Assembly: GCA_019055375.1 (NCBI GenBank)
Contig: JAHQIW010007200.1
Location: forward strand, 248,001 to 312,000
From: Parelaphostrongylus tenuis
Taxonomy: Eukaryota > Nematoda > Chromadorea > Rhabditida > Metastrongylidae
Length of the DNA stretch: 64,000 nucleotides
Reading direction: 5' to 3'
Of the stretch, positions 2,946 through 49,382 are shown one piece after another (positions within the stretch are counted from its first letter, which is position 1; every line of letters starts with the position of its first letter). The notes below the pieces were generated by a model. That model was given only the letters and a program-made list of their open reading frames with translations, was not told where the DNA came from and ran no database searches. Position numbers and translations under genes: made by a program.

Positions 2946-3215
2946 CACTAGCCACGAGTAATCGTGTGTACAACACTCTGCGTTCGGTGCTAATTTCACT
3001 GGACATAGAATGTAAAATGTTCGTCGTCGCTAACTTTTAGTGTGGGGACTGGAGCACCCACACAGGATTGACAAAAGACGAGAAAGGGTGACTGCCCGAC
3101 TGACGAGGTCGCAATATCGAACACGTAGTATATCGGGCTCTTTAAGTCAGCCCTCTTTGACAGACCACTGACATGCGTGGCTCAAAAATGATCACTAAGC
3201 GTAGAAATTCATTTT
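2905..3215 (+). repeat. Family A unit, plus orientation
   Basis: This unit follows directly on the tail of the palindrome through the recurrent tail-to-head junction (about 2905-2965). It contains the CACTGGACATAG and CGTCGCTAAC blocks shared with other copies and a ribozyme region at 3094-3138. Stem I is intact (GCCCGA/TCGGGC), but stem II and the base after GAA are altered. Confidence 0.8.
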
Positions 3216-3219
3216 TCTC

Positions 3220-3965
3220 TTGTTTCCAATCACTGTAATGGCTTTTGGGCATTACATTTATTAGGAGGATATCGACACCGAAAGCTAATTACCTTTCATT
3301 CTTTGCGCAATCAATTACAAGTCACAGGATACTAAAATCAGTATGATTATATAATGATTGAGTGCTTTTCTTCACACACCAAAGTGTTGCATGAGCCAAA
3401 ATTGTGAATTCATAGAAAACAGGCATAGATAAATTCAGAAAAGCATAAGAATTTTTTCAAAATAAAGATCAAAACCTCATCATACTAAGAAAGTCGAACG
3501 CGGTCTCCGAATTTCGCTGTGACCATGGTCTCGAAAGCATTGATTAAGCAGTTTTCAACACATTTACTTCCTTGTTTGACTGCTTTGGGATCACTACTAT
3601 AGTGTATTTCAAGAAAATACTTCCTTTTAATCTTTCGTTTGCATTCCAGCTGCACTGGAGGTTTTCAATTATAAAACCAATTATTCCCCGTAGTAGTTTG
3701 TTTTATATTGCTTCCCACGTTGATTGAATGTCAAGTACATCATATCCATTTGTCGCGTTAAAAATGACGCAGCTTTTTCAAATTTCCAATTATTAATCAT
3801 AATTAGAGTCAAGGCACTACTCACATATATGCCAAACTGCTAACAACATGGGCGTTTTATCAAGATTATGTTGAAAGCCATTTTATTTCCGGATCGGTTG
3901 ATGAGCATTTCATGCGGTGGGAACTCTTCTAAGAACCGATGATGCGAATATTCTAATTATGGTAA
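3220..3965. other. No recognisable gene
   Basis: AT-rich intergenic sequence with frequent stops in all frames and no repeat that I could match elsewhere in the window. Confidence 0.4.
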
Positions 3966-4869: not shown

Positions 4870-5590
4870 AGCACGCGTAAGCGATTGAAAATATTTGTGA
4901 GTCATAGGGCCTGAAAGTCTTAACCATCACAAAGTGCAACGTCGGTTTGAAAAATTTGGCCCGGACGAGTTACTGAGATAACGAAGGGCGCTTACGTTCT
5001 ATGCATGCGCAAGCATGACGGTACGAAAACTTGAAGAAGAGCTCAAAGTAAAGCTTCAGCTGTTTTGTAGCCGATAGAAAAATTGGAAGCTGAGGAAAAG
5101 CTGCATGAATCATGGTAGACTGTGAAATCGGCGTTCACAACCATTCTCTTCTTGACCGTAACGTGACTGATCAGAACTGGATTCTTCAAAACAACTAAAC
5201 GATGGGCTAAATGGCTGGGCTGCGGCAAAGCTGTGCAGGGTTGGCAAAAGCCGGAGGTGCACCAAAAAATGGGCATGCAGACCGCTTAGTGTTTGCTGTT
5301 GATTAAATATATCGGAAATTCTAAATCTTGGGGGATCGATCACATCAGAAAGGTGGGCCCAGGATGTCGACAAAAAGTATATCGGTTATGTCAAAGGATG
5401 TGCTTCACATTGGTCAGGAGAGAGAGACCAATCCTTCTTCACGAACGTGCAGACACACATAGAACAAGCAATGCTGTCAAGATTAAACAGGCTGTGCTAC
5501 GAAACTGTAACACATTCTCGATACAAACCTGACTCGACAAATACTCTCTCAACCATCTCGACAAATTTCTGTGCAAGAGTGCCTAGCCTC
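4870..5590 (+). mobile_element. mariner (SETMAR-like) transposase remnant
   Basis: Several frames together spell a decayed mariner transposase in order. An N-terminal stretch near 4920-4975 (HHKVQRRFEKFGPDELL) resembles the QRWFxKFxxGDxSLED region. LLDRNVTDQNWILQNN near 5145-5205 matches the catalytic block normally reading DRIVTGDEKWILYDN; its aspartate-glutamate pair is lost. RPILLHERADTHRTSNAVKI near 5426-5485 matches ILLHDNARPHT. A final stretch resembles HLDKFL. Many stops and frameshifts separate the pieces, so it is a fossil. Confidence 0.75.
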
Positions 5591-6075: not shown

Positions 6076-6173
6076 TAAAATTTATCTGTGAACATACAGT
6101 GTGACACGCTAATTCTTATAATCATGATTTGAGCCGACATGTCATGTGTTCTGTTACAGGGCAAACTCATAGA

Positions 6174-6217
6174 GCCCGATACACGTGTTTCGACCTTAAC
6201 AGTCTCATCAGTCGGGC
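6174..6217 (-). ncRNA. Hammerhead ribozyme candidate, family A
   Basis: Read on the minus strand, the order is GCCCGA (stem I), CUGAUGA, a 13-nt hairpin GACUGUUAAGGUC (stem II), GAA, ACACGUGU, A, then UCGGGC (stem I). Every invariant hammerhead core base is present, and stem I is a perfect six-pair helix. Stem III can be two pairs (AC/GU) closed by a four-base loop, or an eight-pair palindromic helix between two molecules. Cleavage would follow the GUA triplet. This is the best-preserved copy in the window. Confidence 0.72.
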
Positions 6218-6595
6218 GGTACCCTTCGTCTTTTGCCAGTCCTCTCGGGGCGCTCAGTCCCTTATACTCAGTGTAGGCGACGACAAACATTTCACACCGT
6301 TCAATAAATTATATTGCCACTGAATAGGCAGTGTTGTACACTCATTGCTCTTAGTTGGTATCGTTAGTATGACATGCCTTTCGTTTCGAGGGCTTTCTTG
6401 AGACCACATTCAGATTTCAAGATATCTCTTAATCATTATACCAGCTAACGATACCAGCCAAGAGTAATCGAGTGTCCAGCACTGCCCATTTATTGATAAT
6501 TTCACTTGATGGGCGGCGTAAAATGTGCGATGCCGCCTATTCACAGTACAGAGAACTGAGCGTCCCAAAAGGATTGGCTAAAGACGAAGAGTACT

Positions 6596-6639
6596 GCTCG
6601 ACTGATGAGACCGTCAAGGTCGAAACACGCGTATCGGAC
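6596..6639 (+). ncRNA. Hammerhead ribozyme candidate, family A
   Basis: CUGAUGA is intact. Stem II GACC/GGUC is perfect with a five-base GUCAA loop, followed by GAA, ACACGCGU and the GUA cleavage triplet. Stem I (GCUCGA with UCGGAC) keeps three inner pairs plus weaker outer contacts. It diverges from the copy at 6174-6217, which lies on the opposite strand. Confidence 0.65.
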
Positions 6640-6744
6640 TTTATGAGTCAGCCTATTTAATAGACTACATGACATGTTGGCTCGAATAATTATCATGAGA
6701 CATGTTGGAATTTGAGCGTGGTCTTAAGAAAGCACGGGGACGAA

Positions 6745-7439: not shown

Positions 7440-8012
7440 ATTTATCTATGTCTGCTAATTTGAGCCACGCATGTCATGTGGTCTGTTAAGATGGGCTGAC
7501 TTATAGAGCCCGATACACGTGTTTCGACCTTGCGGTTGCGTCAGTCGAGCAGTCATCCTTTCTGGTCTTTTACCAACCCTGTGTGGGTGCCTCAGTCCCC
7601 ACACTAAGAGTTAGCGACAACCAACATTTTGCACTGTAAGTCCAGTGAGGTTATTGAAAGTTGAGCTGTGGTTTAACAAAACACTCGAAACGATAGATAT
7701 GATATATAAAATATAATAGGCAAAAGCAATCGAATGTGCAACACCGTCTGTTCAGTGATTATTTAACCGAACTTACACTGTAAAATGTTCGTCGACGCTA
7801 ACTCTTAGTGTGGGGCTCAGGTATCCACAAAGGATTGGCAAAGGACTAGTAAGGGTAAGTACCGACTAACGAGATCGCAAGGTCCAAACACGTGTATTGG
7901 GCTGTATAAGCCAGCACATCTTAACAGACCACATGACATGCGTGGTTCAAAAATGATCATGAGGCATATTGACATTTTAGCTGTGGTCTGAAGAAAACAC
8001 TCGAAACGATAC
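7440..8012. repeat. Family A cluster, divergent units
   Basis: A minus unit (7440-7650) has the ACGCATGTCATGTGGTCTG tail outermost, then a short plus-oriented tail (7660-7700). A unit junction follows at 7675-7730, and then a plus unit to about 8010. The plus core near 7884 reads CTAACGA and CAA in place of CUGANGA and GAA, so that ribozyme is dead. Confidence 0.8.
7508..7550 (-). ncRNA. Hammerhead-like core, family A, damaged
   Basis: On the minus strand the order is GCUCGA, CUGACGC, AACCGCAAGGUC, GAA, ACACGUGUA, UCGGGC. The last base of the CUGANGA box is C instead of A, and the first pair of stem II is lost. The ribozyme is probably inactive but clearly homologous to the intact copies. 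Confidence 0.5.
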
Positions 8013-8460
8013 ATATGTATTTATTTAGTTGAAACTTGCAAAGCCAGTTACATAACAAATTAATCGCAAAAATTTATACTGCACACCGCGATACAATACA
8101 CTTTATCGATAGTTAAGAAAGCTTTTCGTCATTAGTGCGCTTCGACAAGTCAAACTTCTATAGAATTGTAGAAAAAGCTCTGTTCTATTGCATTATGGTT
8201 TTCAAATTAATCACTCATTCTTCGATATTAGCACTGTTCATCATTGTAAACATACCTCTAATAGTGTACCAATTTTATGTGCTCTACTGATTTTTTATTC
8301 ACGCTCCTTTTCTGTGATATGATTATCAATGATCTATACAAAGTTTCCTTTCAAAAAAACCAAAGAAGCACGAGTGCGTCTCACACATTGTGACTCCAAT
8401 CCACCCAGCTGTAATGAAAAGTAAGGTTCTTAAATAAAAGTACTCGTTATATTCGATTGT
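8012..8460. other. No recognisable gene
   Basis: Intergenic AT-rich spacer with no feature I can support. Confidence 0.35.
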
Positions 8461-8700
8461 TTCTGAGACCTCGCTCAAATTTTATACGCGGGTAAAGTGA
8501 AATTTTACGTTACACGCTGTGAAGCATGTTCGTCGGCGACTCCTTTTATGTAAGAGGGCTCTCTTCCGAAAGGGATTGGCTCAGGGGAAAGGCCCTGTGC
8601 AGTGACGAGGGTGCAAGGGTGAAACACGTAAATTACACTGGATAAGTGTCGTAACAGACCTCATAAAAGGCTTAAAATATGCTGTTAAGGTAACGTTCAT
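8460..8700 (+). repeat. Family A solo copy, degenerate
   Basis: The sequence keeps the order of family A blocks (GTTCGTCGGCGAC, GGGATTGGCTCAGG, GTGACGAGG, GTGAAACACGTA). The core first base and stem I are lost. It is an old copy without a usable ribozyme. Confidence 0.55.
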
Positions 8701-10152: not shown

Positions 10153-13100
10153 ATGAGCAAATACGACTATCCGTTTCACAATATTTTCTTCGTCTTCTAC
10201 ATAGTCTTGGGCTCGACTCTCTTGTTATTGAATTTGCAGATGATGATAGTAAGAAAATGCGGTTACCCTTACTTTCACTTTTTACAGAATAGCTGCATCG
10301 AATAATTACAGCAATTTATTTAGCGTTTGTTTCTAAAATGCAAGGAAACTTTCAAAATTATTTCTACGGATTAGTTGCGACTTTACACATTGTAACTATA
10401 TTCTGTAGGTTATTCGACGATCCAGATCCTTATGGATTCTTTCTGCCTATCGTCTCATCTTTTTCGGCAGCGCTGCTGATTCTGTGAATTGTGGGACTCA
10501 AGTGGCTACCGTGGCTCTCACTCTCCGCACTCCTTTCATTCATCCAACGATAAATTTGGTGGGTGTCGACGGTTTTACACCATCCTGAGCTTTTGACAAG
10601 TTTTCACTACGCTTTTGTAGAACAAAGTGCACAATTTAAATTTTTCCTCTTTATTTCCTTTCTTGTCACTATACCTAATCGCATAAGGCAAGCTTCAGTG
10701 AAACGACGGTTTGACTGGCTTTTTAGTGTGAAAATTTGCCTATCGCCTAATAGCCGGCACCAATTCTGCTAGTTGTTGATAAATCTGCATGCAGCATATT
10801 ACATTTTCATCGCTGAGCACTCGTTTCGAAGAAAACGATGAAAAATTGAAAAAAAATGCTTTGTAATAGGTTTTCGCACAAGATTTCTTCTTTCTAATAG
10901 AGTTCATTTATTTTCTAGTTTTTTCTAATAGAGCTCTTTCTAGTAGAGCTTCTCTCTAATAGAGCCCGTTCAGCTGATGGGAGCACTTTTTCAAGCATCC
11001 TACGCCATCGAATATCCATCAATCCTCATTCTCTCTGTGAATCGGCTTGTCGCAGTGGTTTTTCCAAAGAAGATGGATCTAATTTTTGACAGGAAGAAAA
11101 CGACGGTACGAGAATTCAAAGACCGCGGTGTTCTATCTGCTTCATCTATTCAATTTGTCAACAGTTACATTGAAACGATCCTAGATGACTTGAGTTTTAT
11201 ACAGATAACCTTGATTTTGTGCTACCTCTTTGGTGCTTTAAATGGCGCTATTTGTCTTTCTGGAGAAGTTCAGTCACTGTGGGACCCATCTGTTCCAACA
11301 TTCTATTTCACGAGTGAGTCTGACGCTATTACTGATAAAAAAAGGTTTGCCACATGAATGGCGTGAAAACTTTATTCTAAAAATACTTCATTGTTAATCT
11401 ACAGGACAATAGTTCTCTATTTTTCTTCTCATGAACTCAGTGTCAACCAATCTATTAGCTTGTTGGGTTTTGTGGCTAGTAGGTCTAGATATTTGGTGGA
11501 CAGACGTGAAGCTCAAGCAGTCATTCTATAATGTTGAGTTACTAGGTTAAAGAAAAAGTTTCTGAACACAAAACAAAGAATTCAAAAATTAATGTTTATA
11601 CTTCTGCTATCGACTGCTTTTTTACAGACCCGCTCAAAATGATTTAATCTGATAAGGATATGACTTATTTTGAGCCATAGGTCTAGTGCTATATAGGCGC
11701 CTATTTCGTCCTATTGGGACTCATCAGTAGCACCCTCCCTCGGTTCCGTCGATCCCTTGAGGTTAAATAATCCTCTAAAGGAATCGGCGCCGAGTAAAAA
11801 CTAATCACCCAAAGTCGGATGATGGTCTTACCTGACTTTGTGGTGACCGGCAGTCGAGCTTACGGCTTTTAAAATGAACTATACTAATGTTTATTCCAAG
11901 CAAAATCAGTTATTGTAAATTCAAGAGAATATCTCAAATATTTCCATGAGAAACTCCCACGGCAACGCTACTTATAGCGTTGAAGGAAAAGCACCCGACA
12001 CTGATTCGTCGAATGTGCGTTGTTGCAGCAAGACAATACCAAACCTTGCACCACAAGAAGACTAAGAAGAAGTTGATGAAATGGAGAGAGTCGAAATCTT
12101 GTAGCAGCCAGCTCGCAGTCCAAATGTTTGCACCGCCCGGTTATGGTTCTTTTCGCTCAATAGAACATTTCTTACGTGGATGCCGATTCGAAACATTTGA
12201 TTGAAATGAAGAGGCATGTCAGGAGCTTCTCAATTCAAAGTCCAAAGAATGGCAACATCGAGCAGATTCGGAAGCTTGCAGATCATTGGCAGAAGATCGT
12301 GTATAATGATGGTTCATATTTTGAATAATAATTACTGTTGTTTTCAACTAAATTCATGCATGATTTCTGAATTTTTAGCAGATGCTGTGCTACTTTTCTA
12401 AATCTTTTATTACAGATGATACATCTCATGCGGTCTTCATACGCTCCATGGACTTCTGGTTAGGTGAATTCGTGTGTATTTCAAGTTTCATCATCTATCT
12501 TATCGTCGTCGTCTTTCTACTATGCAACGTAAGTCATTGTTATCTGAACGTTTTACTACTTTTAGCCCATAAGGCAGACTTTCTATGAACACCTGTATGT
12601 GGCGCAGTGGTTGAAGGTGATCCGTGTACACGTCGTTGATCACTCGATGTGCGATCGTTATTATATCGCGCTTAAGGTTCATCAACCCTGTATCCCTCCG
12701 ATGTCGGTAAATAGGTACCAGAGTTTTTTCTAAACATAGCAGTAACGACTCGATCTATTGGTAGGTCACCGCAAGTCATAGTAAAGGCCACGCGCATGAA
12801 TTCAATCACCTCAAGCAAAGCAGAAATTTAAAGGCGAATGCATGGCGCATCCCTGTGGGACTGATCGATCCTGAGAGGTTCATCATTTATTCTTTGACTT
12901 GATTTGCTGACGCGAGGCTGGAAATAAAGTAGTGGTAGTAATAGCGATAGGAATTCGATGGCTGACGTTTCGCTTTCTTCACAACATAGACGTACATTAT
13001 ATAAGACTCGGCAAACCAGATTCGGAATAAAGTCGTCGAAATGTCGGCAATCCAATTCTTATTATTATTATTATTGTTAACAACCTGGCGTCGGTCATGA

Positions 13101-15872: not shown

Positions 15873-15907
15873 GGCTCTAAAGAAGGCGGGTTGCCGAAGC
15901 GTCAGCC
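15873..15907 (+). ncRNA. Minimal hammerhead-like motif, Penelope type
   Basis: GGCU, CUAAAGA, hairpin with GGC/GCC, GAAGCGUC, AGCC. Stem I is intact, but the G of CUGANGA is A and the base after GAA is changed. It is the inverted partner of the motif at 15675-15709. Confidence 0.42.
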
Positions 15908-20204: not shown

Positions 20205-20475
20205 ATTATACATTAGATATACTAGCCAAGAGTAATCGAGTGTACAACATTCTGTGTCCGGTGATAATTTCACTGGACATAGAGTGAAAATGTTCGTCGA
20301 CGCTAACTCTTAGTTTGGGGACTGGAGCACCCACACAGGGTTGGCAAAAGACGAGAAAGGGTAACTGCCGACTGACGAGACCGCAAGGTCGAAACACGTG
20401 TATCGGGCTCTATAAGTCAGCTCATCTTAACAGACCATATGACATACGCGGCTCAAAAATGATTTTGTGGCATAT
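20205..20475 (+). repeat. Family A solo unit
   Basis: A near full-length unit: CTAGCCAAGAGTAATCGAGT, CACTGGACATAG, GTTCGTCGACGCTAAC, the ribozyme, then CAGACCATATGACATACG with the tail cut off near 20475. It is one of the least diverged copies. Confidence 0.85.
20367..20408 (+). ncRNA. Hammerhead ribozyme candidate, family A
   Basis: CUGACGA, a perfect four-pair stem II GACC/GGUC closed by a GCAA tetraloop, GAA, ACACGUGU, A, UCGGGC. All core residues are intact. Stem I has lost one C on its 5' side (GCCGA), leaving four pairs. The GUA cleavage triplet is kept. Confidence 0.65.
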
Positions 20476-23070: not shown

Positions 23071-23230
23071 AGATGTTTAGATCATACAAATTTATCAAGG
23101 TAAATAAGTTGAAAGGCAGTAAAATAATAAGTAAATAAGGTGAGCCAGCACTCTCGCTCACCTTATTTACTTATTATTTCACTGCCTTTCAACTTATTTA
23201 CTTCGATAAATTTGTATGATCTAAACATCT
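23071..23230. repeat. Near-perfect 160-bp foldback
   Basis: Two arms of 74 bp, starting AGATGTTTAGATCATACAAA and ending with the complement of that sequence, pair with about three mismatches around a 12-nt centre. The arms are AT-rich. The high identity implies recent origin or ongoing correction. Confidence 0.92.
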
Positions 23231-29809: not shown

Positions 29810-32475
29810 GTGCTTGAGGTAAAGTGCAAGATATGGTATGATAAATCAATTATGAGCTATGAGAAACGTTGGTCATCAATCTTGAAGATGTGCCAACCTC
29901 GCTGAAGCTTCATTCTTTGAGGACTGCAGATAATTAGATCTCACAATTGACACACAATAATCGTTATTTGAGATAGATTTTCTCTCTCAATTCAGGAAAC
30001 ACTTTAGTAATTTGTAACCCGATGGTGACGATTTTCCGTGCACGCTAACATAAGCATATATAAGTCTTGCGCGCGAAAAAAAACGCCCAAAAGTGAAACG
30101 TAATCTCTTTTCAATCATAAAGCACACTTTGAAAACCTTCACAAAAACGAAATTAGCATTGAAATTGTCGAGATTCGTGGCATCAGCTGAGTAATAGTCT
30201 ATTCTAATATAGACCATTAGCAGACTCCAGCCGTCCAGTAGAAGCACTCCGAGTGTCAAGCATTTATATTCCTTCGCCATACTAAAAATGCACTGAAAAA
30301 GCCTTTTGAGAAATGGAGAACAATGATGAGATTATCGAGACTTACGCTTCGAATAACTACTGAACTTCCAGTAAAAAAGCTCTATGAAGCGGAGAAACCG
30401 TTGAAATAAGGATATTTTGCAAGAGAATTTTTATCTACGCCGAAATTTAGTGAAAGCAGAATTTTTTCGCTTTCTTTTGTTCAGTCGAGTTGGGGAAATG
30501 TTCCACAGTAAAAACATATGACACTGCTTGACAAAACGTACGCCAATAACATACCCAAAGGCCTCTCCGTGGCCATGTACGCCATGCATACTCACTGTTT
30601 CCAAAATTAAACAATACCAAAAACTAGCAAAACATGCCTTATTCCTGGCTCTTCCACAAGTGCATGACGTTGAGAGGATAAAAGCGACCTATATTTTGCT
30701 ACAATGAATTGAATATCCTGACGCTTGAATTATCTGTTCACTAACAATGCAGTAGAGTTATGATGCACTAACAAATACAGTGTGGGTAATCAGATGGAAG
30801 GATAGTAGATAGTAGCACTACCTATCGTAGTCCTCCCATTCCTAATAATCTCCAATGAAATCGCGATTTAGCAGCTTTTTTATCAATAAATTTGCAACAG
30901 AACTCAACAGTTTTAGTAAAAAATAAAGAGTTTATCCCTAATTATGGCTGAAGTTCATCGCTGATTTAGATATTTTTGATAATGTGTTTTGGCCAGATTC
31001 CTCTCTGTTCGTTTAGTATATTTTTTGTCGTCATTTAGATCATCATCGTCAGTTTCGTCTTCACATTGTAGCAAGCAAATCATAGCCTGATCAGATTCAG
31101 TCTATTCATCCCCATTTTCGCCTCGGGATAAGTGATTTTTGAAGCTAATTTTAACCTTTCTATCTCCTATATGTAAATAAATTGATTTGTTTTTCATTTC
31201 ACGCGATTAGTCATCAGATCTTACTGTGCGAATCCCAGCACTTCTAGCACTTGATTCACTTTTTTACATTTATCTTTAACAAATGATTTCGAACTGTTGC
31301 TTAAAGAGCTGAACTCTCACATGACTTTCGTAGAATGCTGGTTGAAACGACTCTTTCCACAATATTACAAATTTCAGAACTAAAACGCTCCAAGGCGATC
31401 TGTAGATTCTTAGTATGAGAGTGTTGAGAGAAGGGTCAGCCTACGAACATGCTACTCGATAACTGACCATTTGGCCACCACTCCTCCTTTACAAACGGGG
31501 TACAACATAAGATGATCATTTACGACAGTAATTATCACATGTGCGAAAATCATGTATGAAGAAGAAGGACTAATTCAACTATTACTTTAATTTATTTTAT
31601 TCCATACCACTCAATCTTTCCAATCTGTGGCTCCTCACATTCCGCATTGGATACGTCATTTCGTACCTATCACCACAAAGTTCTTCTTAAGTTTCTTGAG
31701 TTCTTTCGACTGCTATTAGCAGATTACATCTTCTGCATGAGTTTTGTAGAACATCGGTCGAGACAATTCTTCTCGCATTCTTGGAGGCAGTCAAGCTAAA
31801 GCGCTTTCTTATGCGCTTGTCGATTATCTGGGATAACGTTATGAAAGGGTTTCAAACCGGCATATTGATACTTTCTGAGGACCACATCAATAATCATGAA
31901 GTCCTTCTTTACCCTGTACCCGCACTTCGGTATAACAAACAAAATGCAGAATAAAATTTATTAATCAAAGCTGTAATTATCACATATGTGGCAAATCCTT
32001 GGTAAATTGGGTCTGCGTAGGTCAGTATGCGGTGCACTCCATAGCGGAAATTATGTTAGCATAGGTTAACACCAACTGCAGAACTCTTTCGCCACCAGTG
32101 GGTTGACTGTGGGTTTCAGAAGTGTGCGAATAGCGCCACAGTGCATTGTCGTATTCTTTGTCGTATTCGGCAGAGCTCTTCGAAATGAGTGTGAGCAATA
32201 GCGCAGTACTACCACCGCTTGGTTTCCAAGAAGAATTGTCATGAACTTCAATTAACCTTTCATCATCTTGATGCAAAATTTGTGTTAAACTTCCTTTCAA
32301 GTTCAAATTTCGTAGCATTCCGTCCTACCACTGACAAGCTAGACAGGTTCCAAGAAACAATGATTCCAAAGAGCAATGATTGTCAGAGAACACTGCAGCA
32401 CTGTTGCGCCGTGAATTAAAAAAATTTACCATAACGTTCTTACAATAACACGAGAAAAATTGAAGATCAACCAAG
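29810..32475. other. Long stretch without recognisable gene
   Basis: AT-rich sequence. The longest ORFs (29987-30280 and 32022-32318, both minus) have no recognised domains or splice context. No repeat from elsewhere in the window was matched here. Confidence 0.4.
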
Positions 32476-32479
32476 GCTC

Positions 32480-32745
32480 TTTTTATTTAGCCGCTTCTAG
32501 CGGTGGTTTGATGTTACAAATATTTACCCATTGATGTAGATTGATGTGCAAAACTTTCGCGTCAGGCGGGACTAGAACCCGCTCCTCACTCTTTCCGGGA
32601 ATGCGTGCTCTATCCGTTACACTACTGACGCCCATTTTGCACATCGCTCTTTCTACGTTACAGCGCATCTATCTGTCAGCCGTCAGCAGTCAACGGCTTG
32701 GTCCGGGTTGTCGGTTTCGACATTGAACCGAGCCACGCTGACAGA
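32480..32745 (-). mobile_element. SINE family E copy, full-length
   Basis: On the minus strand the element opens with a CTGTCAGC..GACGGCTGACAG region, then GCGCTGTAACGTAGAAAGAG. A tRNA-like body follows at 32559-32631. The end holds a hairpin CCGCTAGAAGCGG and a TAAATAAAAAG tail. The tRNA-like body has a perfect seven-pair acceptor stem (GCGTCAG/CTGACGC), a perfect GCGGG/CCCGC T-stem, and an anticodon arm whose loop is CCGGAAA. Confidence 0.75.
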
Positions 32746-32784
32746 TTTGGATATAAAGATCAAACAAAATTCTTTTTATTTATT

Positions 32785-32935
32785 TACAGTAGTGTAACGG
32801 ATAGAGCACGCATTCCCGGGAATAGTGAGGTGTGGGTTCTAGTCCCGCCTGATGCGAAAGTTTTGCACAACACTCTACATCATTAGGTATATATTTGTAA
32901 CATCATACCACCGCTAGAAGCGGCTAAATAAAAAG
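32785..32935 (+). mobile_element. SINE family E copy, 5' truncated
   Basis: It starts at the tRNA-like body (CAGTAGTGTAACGGATAGAG) and runs through the T-arm GTGGGTTCTAGTCCCGC to the CCGCTAGAAGCGG hairpin and a TAAATAAAAAG tail. It is inverted relative to the copy at 32480-32745. Confidence 0.75.
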
Positions 32936-32964
32936 AATCTTGTTTGATCTTCAATACCCAATAT

Positions 32965-33215
32965 CTGTCAGCTTGACGGTTCAATGTCAGACCGACTACC
33001 CGGACTAGGCCGTTAACGGCTGGCGGCTGACAGATAGATGCGCTGTAACGTAGAAAGAGTGATGTGCAAAATGGGAGTCAGTAGTGTAACGCATAGAGCA
33101 CGCATTCCCGGAAAGAGTGGGGTGCGGGTTCTAGTCCCGCCTGACGCGAAAGTTTGGCACATAACTCTACATCAGTGAGTATATTCGAAGCATCATAGTT
33201 AAATAAAAAGAATTT
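32965..33215 (+). mobile_element. SINE family E copy, nearly full-length
   Basis: It has the CTGTCAGC..GGCGGCTGACAG head, GCGCTGTAACGTAGAAAGAG, a tRNA-like body at about 33075-33147, and a tail TTAAATAAAAAG without the CCGCTAG hairpin. Together with the two preceding copies it forms an inverted SINE array. Confidence 0.75.
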
Positions 33216-33905: not shown

Positions 33906-34004
33906 TTGTTGTTGCTTTTGTCGTTATTTTATGCATAAAAGGAAACTTTCAAAGACTTCTCAAAGCTTTTTGCGCAATCCTAGATACTAATCGAATGATT
34001 ATGC

Positions 34005-34445
34005 ATATGCCAGATAATCACTTTTTGAGCCACGCATGTGATCCGTTATATAGGATTGACTTATAGATCCCGATAGACGTGTTTCGACATTGACAGTCTC
34101 ATAAGTCAGGCGGTATCTTTTCGTCTTTTGTCAATCCTCTCGGGTTGCTCAGTCCCCTAGACCAAAAGTAGGCGACGACGAACTATTTACACTACTTATC
34201 AAGTGAAATTATCACTGAATAGACAGTGTTGTACACTCGATTACTCTTGGCTGATATCTTTAATATGTCATAGCTTTAATATGTCACGACCGACTGAGAC
34301 TGTCAAGGTCGAAATACGGGTATCGGGCTCAATAAGCCAACCCTATATAACAGACCGCACGCGTGGCTCAAAAAGTGATTATCTGGCATATTGAAATTTG
34401 AGCGTGGTCTTAAGAAAACACTCGAAACGAAAGGTATGCATATAT
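34005..34445. repeat. Family A cluster, divergent units
   Basis: A minus unit (about 34015-34260) and a plus partial unit (about 34285-34440) are arranged outward as in the other clusters. The minus core reads CUUAUGA and the plus core has lost two bases of CUGANGA, so both ribozymes are damaged. Confidence 0.75.
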
Positions 34446-35293: not shown

Positions 35294-35334
35294 GGCTTAC
35301 GGGCGGTTTCGGCTGCATAGCCATCATCAGAGCC
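35294..35334 (-). ncRNA. Hammerhead ribozyme candidate, Penelope type
   Basis: Minus strand: GGCU, CUGAUGA, one extra base, GGCU/AGCC with an AUGC loop, GAA, AC, CGCCC loop, GU, A, AGCC. CUGAUGA and GAA are intact, and stems I and II are perfect four-pair helices. Stem III has two pairs with a five-base loop, and the cleavage triplet is GUA. One unpaired base sits between CUGAUGA and stem II, a deviation shared by all copies of this type. No Penelope coding remnant was seen beside it. Confidence 0.6.
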
Positions 35335-44699: not shown

Positions 44700-46490
44700 T
44701 CGTCCATGGCGGTGATTTCAGTCGAGCTGGCCGCTGGCACGAGTTTCATACCGTGATCTGTAGTGTATCGGCAGGTGCGAATACAACGGGTCCCAATATA
44801 GATATGAATACAGCTGTATAATTCTTCTGGTGAATACGTCCGCCCAACGTTTAGGTGGTCGTCCTTGGGGACGGGTGTATTCTCGTGGCGTCCACTCTAC
44901 AGTTCGTTTCGTCCATCTGTCGTCTGATCTTCTACCTATATGATTAGCCCATCTGTGCTTCGCTATGTGAATTCGTCTGGATCACGATGATGAAATAAAT
45001 CTCTAAGAGCTGAGCTGCGCAGGCCGGCTGCGTGTTGTGAGTGCCGCATAATTTCTCGAAGACATCATTCAAGCACTCTGTAAGTCGTTCGCAGTAGTCT
45101 TGACGTGGTCGAAATGTCAGCTCACGTCTCCTCTGCATATCAGAACAGGACTGTTGAATCGAAAAGGTTAGCGCGTATTCGGGGTCCGTTATTGGGTCGA
45201 TGGCTTCTTACACAGACCCGAAAGTGACCCTCGCTGCTTTTCTTCTGCTGTCGAGTTCCTCCTTCGTATTGTTCTCCATATTCAGTGAACGACCAAGGTA
45301 CACGTATGAGGAGGTCTCCGTAATCAAAGATCCATCCAGTCTGATATGTTCACACTGCACCATTAATTTTGTATGAACTGCGTCTTCATGAGATTTATGC
45401 GTAGTTCGATCTTCTTCCCCGCTTCGTTGACTTCTTGAGCATCGTCTCTGCTTCAGTAGTGCTATTCGAGAATAAGGCAATGTCATCCGCAAAACGAAGG
45501 TTTGATAGAAATTTTCATCGATGCGTATGCCCTTCTCGTCCCAATCAGGTGACTTCATTATCCACTGCAATGCGGCGGTGATCAGCTTTGGCGATATCGT
45601 ACCACCTGTCGAACCTTTTTTAATTGGCTATGATAAGAGTCGATGAATGGGCCGTATTTTCGTGGCACTATTCCGATAGCAGTCTGATGAAGTTCTTATG
45701 TAGGGCAAATCGACTCTTGATCGACAAGCACTGGTAGGATTGCGTTTGTGTCGACGCTATCAAATGTTCTTTCATAGTCGATGAAGTTAAGATTAAGGGC
45801 AGTGTGGTATTCCGAGAGCACTTCGACCTCGACAAGGTGTGGAAATGGTTCCACGCAACAGAATGCCCGTCGGAATCCTGTTGCCCACTGGTTGTATCTC
45901 ATCCAAGCTACAGAAGGATGATCTTCCCAAAAGGTTGTAAAGTATGCTTAACAAGCAGATTGGATGATAGTTGCGAGGAATCCTTCAGTCATCCCTTTTG
46001 TGGATGATGACTGTGCGCGAACGTCCTCCACTGGTCTGAAATTTTTTCCTTTCGATAGTAAGATGTTATATATGCCGAATGAAGCACGTGTAAATTGTGG
46101 CCTTCTGCTCGAAGCAAATCGGAAGAGATATTATCAGGACCCAGAGCCGTGTCTTTTTCCATGCTTTCTATCGCGACTGGAACATCAGAGGACGGAATTC
46201 CAGACGGTTTTTTACGGAGGTCCGAGAGGGGGATGGTGGAACGGAAAAGGTTGATGCAGAATTTTTCCGTTATCAATTCCATATAATGGCGCAAAGTTTT
46301 CGGGATCCCATCTTCGTTCATCAACACTGACAGCGGAACACTGTAATCACACAGATTCCGATGGCACTTCTTCAGACTAAATCTTTCATGTGCTGTTTCT
46401 AACAGTCTCTCCTGTCGGTACCAATATAGATCCTCCTGCAAAGCTGATTTCTCTCTCATTTCTGGCCTAAAAACTTTCTAGCAGTGTTTA
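44700..46490 (-). mobile_element. RTE-type LINE, 5' truncated, inactive
   Basis: On the minus strand, in order: ERFSLKKCHRNLCDYSVPLS, LRHYMELITEKFCINLFRST, SMEKDTALGPDNISSDLLRA and EKISDQWRTF. The next frames give GFRRAFCC, NLNFIDYERTFDSVDTNAIL, LQWIMKS-like MQWIMKSPDWDEKGIRIDEN, TSSYVYLGRSLNMENNTKEE and finally RSDDRWTKRTVEWTPRE and GRPPKRWADVF. This is the reverse transcriptase and C-terminal domain of an RTE-family LINE. Several frame changes separate the blocks, and the catalytic FADD box is not intact. The endonuclease end is absent. It is a different lineage from the copy at 26.6-29.4 kb. Confidence 0.85.
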
Positions 46491-47825
46491 AGAGCGCTCA
46501 GTCTTTCATCAGATATTCACATAAGTATCCTGTTTACCTACACAGCCATCGTTGATTTCTATCAATTATTTTTAGTCACGTATATGAAAAAGACTCAAAT
46601 ACTTCTACATTACGGAACCTCCACTAGTGGGAAAAGTTACAATTGTCCTAGGTAAATTCGTAAGTACCGAGTCATTCATTGTTTCGGTAGACCAAAGTTT
46701 ACGTACAGTTAAGTGTACATTTTGCTCTACCCTGACAACCGAATGCTAACACGTGGATAGTATCCTGAATTGACTGCTGTATCGCGTGTGCAAAGCATGT
46801 GGTCGCACATTTTCTACAAGAGGCAACGATGTTTTAGTTGACAAAAGTGTACAGTTTTTGTGTATACATGCTATTGTGAGAAGCTATTAGAATTTCTACG
46901 CGAGAAGGTTGAACTTTTGAGGCTATTGTAAAAATGTAGTCGTAAAAATTGTGAGAAGTATGTACAAACAATTATATTGAGTACAAGATCTTGAACATAG
47001 GAAATGAGAAATTTTCACTATCTACACAGACGAGAAGTGTTCAAAGAATCTGTCGTCACCCCTATCCCATTGTTTGATGGTCACGGAAGGTGTAGAAGTC
47101 TTGTAATGACCAGATGCAAGAAACCAATGGGCTTAAACGTACTCTTCATCAATGGTTGAGGGTTGTTTGAAAATAAAGAAGTATCTATCACTCTCAAAAT
47201 AATGATGAGTGCTCAAAGAAGGTCTCATCTCACAAAAGTACTCCTCAAGCTCTAAGCCCAATAATTTATTAGCCTCGGCAATCTTAACAATCATTCCTCG
47301 TTGTTTCTTTATGGTAACAAAGTTTTGTAACAAAATTTATTCTGACAGATGACGGTTAGGTAAATTGACCTTTCCAAGTGTCTAAGATGATCAGGTTAGC
47401 AACAGTCAGCAAAACACCTCTATTACTCATAGAGAAAAAAGCTATCAAACCTAGATTCCCAACAAAACAATTTTCACACTTCCAGTTCTTTTATGACTCG
47501 TTCATTTGATTATCTAGGTCGAAACCGTCCGCACAAAAATCACTTAGACTGCGATTGTACCTCCCCATTAGAGTAAGAGTTTTATTCACTTTGCCATATC
47601 GCATGTGATTATTGCGAAGCACTTTTGAAATTGTTGAAAGCCGGCTTAATGATGTCTAGTTACACCAAAAAACCATTAGCTCCACATAAATTCTTTCAAA
47701 AGTCGCAGATTGTAGAGAATATGTTTTCAATTTACAGTTTTGCAATATCGTCGAAGAGAATGTGAAAATGGCAATGGAACTGTTTAGCTTTACCAAGATT
47801 GTCTCTTGTTTCACTTATATAACGA
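46490..47825. other. No recognisable gene
   Basis: AT-rich. A 66-codon ORF at 47133-47333 (-) has no recognised features. Confidence 0.35.
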
Positions 47826-47829
47826 TAGT

Positions 47830-48670
47830 GAAGCTTTCGCTTCAAGTGTTTTTTTTTAAGACCACGCTTAAATTTCAATACGCCAGATAATCATTTTTTG
47901 AGCCACGCATGTGGTCTGTTATCGGTATAGGTAGTGCTGACATAGAGCCCAATACACGCGTTTCGACCTTGACGGTCTCATCAGTCGGGCGGCTACTTTT
48001 CGCTTTTAGCCAGTCCTCTTCGGGCTCTCAGTCTCCTACACTAAGAGTAGACGGCGACGAATACTCTATACTGTAAGTCAAGTGCAATTATCACTGAACA
48101 AACAGCGCTGTACACTCGATTGCTATTGATTAGCATCGTTGATATATCTTTCCTTTCGCTTCGAGTGTTTTCTTAAGACAACGCTCAAATTCAATATGCC
48201 AGATAATCATTTTTTGAGCCACTCATGTGGCTTGTTATACAGGCTAAAGACGAAAGGGTACCACCCGACCGATGAGAATGTCAAGATCGAAGCACTTGTA
48301 TTGGGTTCTATAACTCAGCTCATTTATATGACAGACCACATACATGGCTCAAAAAATGATTATCTGGCATATTGAAGTTTGAGCGTAGTTAAAAAAAAAC
48401 AGAAACGGAAGGTGTAATATACCAACGATACCAGCCAAGAGCAATCGACTGCACAACACTGTGTGTTCAGTGATAATATCACTTTACTTGCGGTGTAAAA
48501 TGTTCTGCTAGTGTGTAAACTGGAGCACTCCACAGAGGATTGGCAATAGACGAGAAAGGGTACCACCCGACTAATGAGACAGTCAAGGTCGAAACACATG
48601 TATCGGGCTATATAAGTCAACCCTATATAATAGACAAGTGCGTGGCTCAGAAAATGACTATCTGGTAGTG
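47830..48670. repeat. Family A cluster with a head-to-tail pair
   Basis: A minus unit (47830-48130) continues through a junction (48105-48160) into a tail. It is followed by two plus units in direct tandem (about 48240-48415 and 48420-48665) joined by the same tail-to-head junction (48385-48440). The CUGANGA positions of the two plus units are 48269 and 48571, a period of 302 nt. Both plus cores carry one substitution (CCGAUGA, CUAAUGA). Confidence 0.88.
47947..47990 (-). ncRNA. Hammerhead ribozyme candidate, family A
   Basis: Minus strand: GCCCGA, CUGAUGA, stem II GACC/GGUC with a GUCAA loop, GAA, ACGCGUGU, A, UUGGGC. All core bases are present. Stem I is six pairs including one G-U. Stem III can form with AC/GU and a four-base loop. 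The GUA cleavage triplet is kept. Confidence 0.7.
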
Positions 48671-49345
48671 AAGTTTTTTTAGCGGTTTTAGGAAAAGTTA
48701 AAATGGTAGATCAAACGAGTGAGCTGGGTGACTTGAATACATTAGCTGTGGGATCGAGCAAATTAGGCCACGGAGGTCTCATCCCATTCCATGAATCTAT
48801 AGCGTTTCGTGACGATTGAAATGCTTTGCAGTCTTTTCCCCATTACTACCTATTTTGTGTTAACTTTCGAGCAATCATGAAAACAGCCTTTTATTACTTC
48901 AAGACATTTTGGTGCTCTGTTCACAATCTTTTCTAGACTAATCTATGATCGCCGTATCATGTAAACTTCACTGCATTGTGGAAGCTCAGATTATACAACT
49001 TTAATGCAGCAGCCACCCACATGAAACGGACAAATCTTTTCTTTTGATAACTCTTGTTCTTGATATGGAGCCTCATTGTGAAAGAAAGTGAAAAATGAGG
49101 TTAAAAGTCTAGGAAACTAATATATTAGCATGGTATTCTGAAATTGTTGGTGAGAACATTTTTTACTGATGAGTTTTGCTTCAAAGTCCCACGGTTGACT
49201 ATCTATCAGCTTAGGCATAGCTTAAATAATGAGTAATTCCTTATGCTACACCGTTCCAAGGTATTATTGATATAATTTGTTGATTATTACTGAAGCAATA
49301 CAGCAATGCAGTTAGTACTGCAGCATGAATATTACATTAATCGTG
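48670..49345. other. No recognisable gene
   Basis: AT-rich spacer. Nothing can be supported. Confidence 0.35.
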
Positions 49346-49347
49346 GT

Positions 49348-49382
49348 GGCTAACGTTTCGGCGGATCGCCTTCTTCAGAGAA
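49348..49382 (-). ncRNA. Minimal hammerhead-like motif, Penelope type
   Basis: Minus strand: CUGAAGA intact, A, GGCG/CGCC with an AUC loop, GAAACGUU, AGCC. The 5' half of stem I is degraded. It lies downstream of the Penelope C-terminal fragment at 49620-49800, as expected for a terminal repeat. Confidence 0.5.

Follow-up and report, generated by a model that had tools for sequence, protein, structure and literature searches.

The locus at about 47825-48705 of the window (the whole 64-kb stretch of nematode DNA analysed here) consists of two arms of a repeat, family A, arranged head-to-head. From left to right it reads full unit a and a tail, both pointing left, followed by partial unit f and full unit c, both pointing right. 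Profile matches delimit the left arm (47825-48245, minus strand), made up of unit a and the tail part of a partial upstream unit, and the right arm (48242-48705, plus strand), in which f is followed head-to-tail by c with a period of 302. The original prediction for this DNA had placed two plus-strand units exactly 302 nt apart, and this spacing was borne out (48268 and 48570). It had also described the copies as holding all hammerhead parts, which is true of family A copies but not of the tandem pair itself, since f carries only a remnant (48261-48305, plus strand; CCGATGA and GAAG), as does c (48563-48609, plus strand; CTAATGA). Core changes of this type normally abolish hammerhead cleavage. 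The sole intact hammerhead at the locus is that of the minus-strand unit a (47947-47990), a type I hammerhead that matches the full descriptor defined below and scores 28.9 bits against Rfam RF00163, below the gathering score of 34. Head-to-head inversion, at this locus and in the family, was absent from the earlier account, and its emphasis on head-to-tail units cut to monomers did not hold up, since most units form inverted pairs, arranged head-to-head, that have ends of the Penelope type and putative target duplications. The f-c tandem pair is an exception among family A layouts, and the Penelope-type inverted layout is the more telling one. About 0.5-0.7 kb from the locus lies the remnant of a Penelope-like element (PLE) end with a minimal hammerhead-like motif (49189-49373, minus strand), and a second remnant of this motif is found at 15882-15906 (plus strand); both are motif matches with at most 4 substitutions.

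Elsewhere in the window, cluster L1 (2183-3200) holds inverted units with inner fragments, placed by profile matches, while head-to-head pairs form clusters L2 (units b and d, 6115-6735), L3 (units i and g, 7448-8014) and L6 (units h and k, 34006-34445). Unit j stands alone with a tail (L4, 17884-18091, plus strand) and unit e alone without one (L5, 20182-20475, plus strand); unit q, at 8502-8670 (plus strand), is weak and diverged. The units have a period of 302 and a GC content of 0.42-0.46, and in the six that were read the longest stop-free stretch is 61-94 aa. No RT/GIY-YIG ORF was present in these six units, nor was any detected by motif search in the 64-kb window.

The dispersed copies of about 300 nt share the parts of a type I hammerhead: stem I (GCCCGA/UCGGGC), CUGA(U/C)GA, a GACC/GGUC hairpin, GAA, ACACGUGU and a GUA site. 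A full type I descriptor, comprising three stems, the core and an NUH site with stem I open, matched five places in the window (6602+, 20372+, 47984-, 6211- and 11727-), whereas 200 dinucleotide shuffles gave no match. Additionally, an exact 32-nt ribozyme pattern gave 93 matches in the 481.5-Mb genome (5105 contigs), as against 0 for the reversed control. These counts rule out a chance origin of the motif, and the claim of a hammerhead repeat family with the listed parts is upheld. Besides unit a, intact cores matching the full descriptor are found in units b (6173-6219, minus strand), d (6596-6639, plus strand; 27.7 bits) and e (20366-20408, plus strand; 28.1 bits), b being absent from the Rfam matches. 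In the covariance-model check proposed in the original prediction, Hammerhead_1 (RF00163) matched at four places with 27.7-29.5 bits, all below its gathering score, and no Rfam match in the window attained a gathering score. The highest-scoring match (29.5 bits) is a divergent relative, m (11686-11733, minus strand), which fits the full descriptor and whose stem letters differ from those of family A yet still pair. Relative m gave four non-self matches, all to family A units in register and all weak (E 0.025-0.28); a family A profile searched against m gave no match.

Across 12 related copies, 89.3% of cells are paired in the three-stem structure, a level matched by 0 of 500 shuffles, and four pairs are changed on both sides, compared with a shuffle mean of 1.4 (15 of 500 shuffles get there); sliding the partners by one column also yields four double-changed pairs, the same count as the true structure, and the number of further pair types in these copies is within the shuffle range (192/500). 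Given 10 copies and no knowledge of the hammerhead, RNAalifold recovered both stem I and stem II, together with an outer helix that is predicted to leave an internal loop within stem I. Minimum-energy folds of five single copies did not single out the hammerhead. To judge from its letters, the family A RNA motif looks able to cut itself.

Random substitution in the core across copies, which the original prediction had named as evidence against it, was not seen; the core holds the best-conserved columns of the unit. In 15 window units the 12 core columns have a mean conservation of 0.927, compared with 0.799 outside the ribozyme, and rank first among 236 slid positions. The same holds for 43 units that had not been selected by their ribozyme (those of the window, the PLE loci and partner arms, with L033 left out), where the core scores 0.905 against 0.757 and ranks first among 219 slid positions. 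All 12 core letters are kept in 10 of the 38 core-spanning units. Since the copies are related, these counts do not represent independent events. From the fact that the core columns are the best conserved, we infer that the source copies retained a working core.

Several other features of the window were noted. Three tRNA-like (Ser) copies at 32459-33197 lie in an inverted and tandem layout that resembles that of family A; a loose motif search found no hammerhead in them, and they are perhaps another non-autonomous element. A hammerhead-like stretch of a different sequence family, CTGATGATGGCTATGCAGCCGAAACCGCCCGTAAGCC, is present at 35330 (minus strand). At 23106-23195 lies a near-perfect palindrome (hairpin), apparently a small fold-back repeat, to which a microRNA family gave a weak match on each strand. 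Broken ORFs at 45211-46477 (minus strand) resemble a reverse transcriptase, which we take to be of the RTE-type LINE kind; they have no Pfam match, and the longer ORF (45989-46477) is also without a protein homologue. Finally, one window fragment resembles a nematode Srx receptor, with a score below the curated cut-off. The window corresponds to C4878:248001-312000 of a genome that has 65 matches to the cuticle-collagen N-terminus family, a marker of nematodes, as against none in 14 control genomes, which are apparently prokaryotic and therefore form a weak control. We regard the host as a nematode.

Genome-wide, a DNA search with one unit produced 5163 candidates, 40 of which were scored; with the query excluded, the full-length relatives are 78-82% identical. 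Thirty of the 39 best scored relatives end at query position 282-296 and nine at 244-263, some contigs being apparent duplicates. Because of the number of candidates and the divergence of the scored full-length relatives, family A is both large and old, its genome-wide numbers resting on the one exact pattern and the one search with 40 scored candidates. Among the 93 exact matches no same-strand pair about 302 nt apart was seen, and two pairs within 1 kb (contigs C366 and C543) are inverted. As to tandem copies, joins of a partial to a full unit are common, and two whole tandem hammerheads occur in 1 of 65 runs. The exact pattern had no match in viral contigs. A lone prokaryote-genome match, L001, was considered as a relative and rejected as an unrelated type III hammerhead pair. 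Its two type III hammerhead-like stretches, 1.6 kb apart at 1970-2025 and 3567-3621 (both minus strand), score 42.7 and 44.3 bits (gathering score 48.5), and the contig is filed as a bacterial MAG; neither is related to family A.

Head-to-head is the prevailing layout, both in the window and at the genome loci retrieved, with the minus-strand unit on the left, the plus-strand unit on the right and the 3' ends outermost. Single units and tandem joins also exist, and inner junctions are scattered. Two 3' ends recur, one near CTGGCATA and one about 45 nt beyond it at CGAAACGAAAGG, the difference constituting a tail of about 45 nt. We assembled 26 inverted elements, 21 from ribozyme-matched loci and five from the window, with hand-set ends. 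The former came from L002-L031, the first 30 of the 93 matches in contig order and thus all selected by the exact ribozyme; L014 and L017, which duplicate L013 and L016, were dropped before counting, and single-armed or one-ended cases (L007, L012, L015, L018, L020, L023, L027 and L028, and in the window L4, L5 and the unit at 8502) were left out. The tail is present on exactly one outer end in 21 of the 26 (permutation p 0.002), on neither in four and on both in one. In a list of 29 tail-less ends, 22 fall at 245-262.

The longest word common to both ends is at least 8 bp in 9 of the 26 elements (null 2.8%; range 8-12 bp) and at least 9 bp in 7 of 26 (null 0.8%), the null being drawn from flanks of different elements; the other 17 have less than 8 bp in common. 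Two examples from the window are the 9-bp direct repeats of cluster L1 (AAATTCATT, at 2179-2187 and 3205-3213) and cluster L6 (TATGCATAT, at 34000-34008 and 34435-34443), each coinciding with the ends or lying only a few bases from them. We read such words as target duplications, apparently present in part of the elements. Inverted repeats flanked at some ends by direct repeats of 8-12 bp might also be expected of a fold-back or MITE-type DNA transposon in whose long inverted ends a hammerhead-like motif had arisen by coincidence. However, in 21 of 26 elements the tail sets one outer end apart from the other, the length of the direct repeat varies, inner junctions are scattered, and single units and tandem joins occur, so that we give this explanation hardly any credence.

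A layout of this kind is also found in the resident PLEs. A GIY-YIG search of the genome returned 1723 candidates, and all 150 that were scored match; the two long PLE ORFs scanned (893 and 902 aa) both hold RVT_1 and GIY-YIG. When the PLE ORF loci were opened, their pLTRs were found to carry another, minimal hammerhead-like motif, unlike the hammerhead of family A, which we take to be the minimal PLE hammerhead. Minimal PLE hammerhead motifs are mentioned in the available text of PMC7761336. Among the 40 PLE loci examined, the two-ended copies, defined as those with the anchor motif on both strands, number seven (two of the loci, L059 and L060, overlap), and all seven carry exactly one tail. 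In six of them 12-13 bp are common to both ends, whereas the largest value in 42 mismatched pairings is 10; the seventh shares 9 bp, within the mismatched-pairing range. Since the one-tail rule, the layout and the end duplications agree, family A appears to integrate in the same way as the resident PLEs.

This agreement raises the question of whether family A is no separate family at all but consists of solo pLTR pairs left by an autonomous PLE family, the copies with an ORF having gone unseen. Their ends, tails and duplications are indeed of the pLTR type, solo pLTRs are described for Adineta vaga in the available text of PMC3846280, and the PLE loci examined are 40 of the 1723 candidates. 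However, the pLTRs of the opened loci carry the different, minimal hammerhead. Moreover, the PLE tail forms the start of the PLE ORF, whereas in tandem family A the tail passes straight into the next unit, and in copy d the frame from the ATG in CTGATGA ends after 13 codons. We regard solo pLTRs as an improbable, if respectable, source of the family.

A common 3' end of family A and the PLEs looked convincing by eye and was rejected after a significance test: over nine PLE stretches the likeness had z values of -0.6 to 2.7, and 3.5-64% of random window stretches scored as well as the PLE 3' ends. A family A unit is present in 11 of the 40 PLE loci, which may reflect plain abundance, since the window alone has 7 clusters in 64 kb. 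At L069 (about 5091-5515, plus strand) the start of a family A unit is no more than a few tens of bases away from the end of the PLE tail, an adjacency that might reflect either template switching, which would make it a chimera, or insertion there by chance. Yet another hammerhead-like repeat family was noticed at L067 (7496, minus strand) and in L069 near the PLE 5' side, the two loci being 82% identical to each other over 290 nt.

We examined where copied runs stop, using a periodic profile that placed 65 runs from matches of at least 60 bits. The 5' boundary of a unit is crossed by 29 runs, of which 27 stop within the 115 nt that lie between this boundary and the predicted upstream ribozyme cut. 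Two go past the cut, one (L031) by 4 positions and the other being the f-c arm, alone among the 65 runs in containing the complete hammerhead of an upstream unit in tandem. Had runs gone on stopping as often as in the preceding 115 nt, 16.8 passes of the cut would be expected (P about 1e-8 under a simple model). Since the profile tracks runs across units and the upstream hammerhead is the best-conserved part, longer runs should have shown. The 12 tail runs and 17 tail-less runs share a stopping place (p 0.52) despite their differing lengths, which indicates that runs are limited by position and not by length, and the predicted cut coincides with that position. A similar, if small, picture emerged from the PLEs: among five copies with placeable 5' ends, four begin inside an interval running from 11 nt ahead of the PLE's own cut to 42 nt beyond it, and the fifth starts 213 nt before this cut. 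The other five of the ten sites are 3' copies extending to the limit of the reference, and are uninformative on 5' ends. These few cases are in line with the family A pattern.

How the ribozyme enters into this can be read in more than one way. Transcription might start, or the RT pause, close to the cut without the ribozyme taking any part in integration; either would also account for where the runs end. The run ends are dispersed over the 115 nt downstream of the cut with no pile-up on it, and PMC11167929 reports in vitro insertion by the anole PLE even with its HHR mutated; both observations would suit such an account. It fits less well with a limit that lies at the predicted cut and is common to tail and tail-less runs, with PLE copies behaving alike at their own cut in four of five cases, or with a ribozyme core that is the best-conserved part of the unit, and we consider it unlikely, though the least so of the alternatives. 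Another reading is that of a classical metazoan retrozyme, in which tandem transcripts are cut to monomers and circularised and the circle serves as template. The size, GC content, type I motif and non-coding nature of the unit accord with it, head-to-tail joins of partial and full units occur, and circles of this sort are reported for other animals in the available text of PMC7229834. Against this, no long arrays were seen, two whole hammerheads coincide in only the one run, and on a circle, copying that has already read through the cut would have no reason to end on meeting it again. A circular template thus seems distinctly improbable, and a pure head-to-tail retrozyme array was rejected, most units being arranged otherwise. 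We infer from the run ends that the template was linear rather than circular.

The results presented above suggest a model in which family A would be a non-coding, non-autonomous type I hammerhead retroelement mobilised in trans by the resident PLEs, and on the available sequences we consider this probable. The computed support consists of the motif and its conservation, the layout, the two recurrent 3' ends, the partial target duplications and the same layout in PLEs. The retrozyme-like character claimed by the original prediction is retained as regards the hammerhead, mobility, unit size, GC content and lack of a long ORF, but its emphasis on tandems and monomers is not; family A may be retrozyme-like and yet copied by Penelope machinery, perhaps from ribozyme-trimmed RNA. 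In such a scheme, an RNA of two or more joined units would first be made. The PLE RT/GIY-YIG protein would then nick the two strands of the target at points some 8-12 bp from each other, and a copy would be primed from each nicked 3' end, the starts being the end of the tail of about 45 nt and the tail-less site near CTGGCATA; double nicking and two start sites are proposed because of the element ends and target duplications. The two copies would grow inward, often be cut short, and be joined head-to-head by a presumed joining step. The more specific proposal that family A is to PLEs as SINEs are to LINEs, with the PLE protein copying a linear RNA that has a hammerhead-made 5' end, by two-strand priming from two start sites, is offered tentatively, as a possibility to which we lend slightly less than even weight. 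If it is true, the hammerheads of these repeats, and perhaps those of PLEs, would gain a concrete job, and the RNA circle would be a by-product, not the template.

Family A bears on which enzyme spreads animal hammerhead repeats and on what their ribozyme does. Its closest counterparts in description are of several kinds. In the newt satellite and the schistosome repeats, as in family A, a repeat of about 300 nt carries a type I hammerhead whose stem III is palindromic and very short. The newt satellite unit is given as about 330 bp in PMC7229834. These repeats come from other phyla and their likeness is one of description, whereas the family A layout is inverted. The metazoan non-LTR retrozymes (Cervera and de la Pena 2020, PMC7229834) resemble family A, in the text available, in having a type I hammerhead, a non-coding unit of about 170-400 nt, low GC, many copies, head-to-tail joins and co-resident PLEs. 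They differ in that family A consists mostly of inverted head-to-head pairs with one tail, with no long tandem arrays seen, and in that its host is a nematode; the phyla named in that paper are others, and its available text does not contain 'nematod'. A search of open-licence literature, with subscription papers mostly outside it, found no report of nematode hammerhead repeats.

The PLEs and their pLTRs share with family A head-to-head repeats, a single tail, duplications of about 8-12 bp and a repeat-borne hammerhead, according to the available text of PMC3846280 and PMC11167929, but family A has no RT/GIY-YIG ORF, a different hammerhead and a 3' sequence that is not significantly similar. 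In the parts available, PMC3846280 describes Penelope elements of Adineta vaga with head-to-head inverted pLTRs, on one of which a 31-bp tail may sit, and target duplications of 8-10 bp or none. According to PMC11167929, both strands of the target are cut and extended by the anole PLE, which initiates reverse transcription at two neighbouring internal sites; its authors connect these two sites to the tail. Family A and the PLEs have left readable and concordant integration scars within one and the same genome, and copied runs come to an end close to the predicted cut. The existing in vitro PLE reaction (as described in the available part of PMC11167929) makes both the agreement of the scars and the stop at the cut testable. 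The available text of PMC7229834 had already named PLEs as a strong candidate for spreading retrozymes, on the grounds of their type I hammerheads, their tandem occurrence and their co-existence in the animals analysed.
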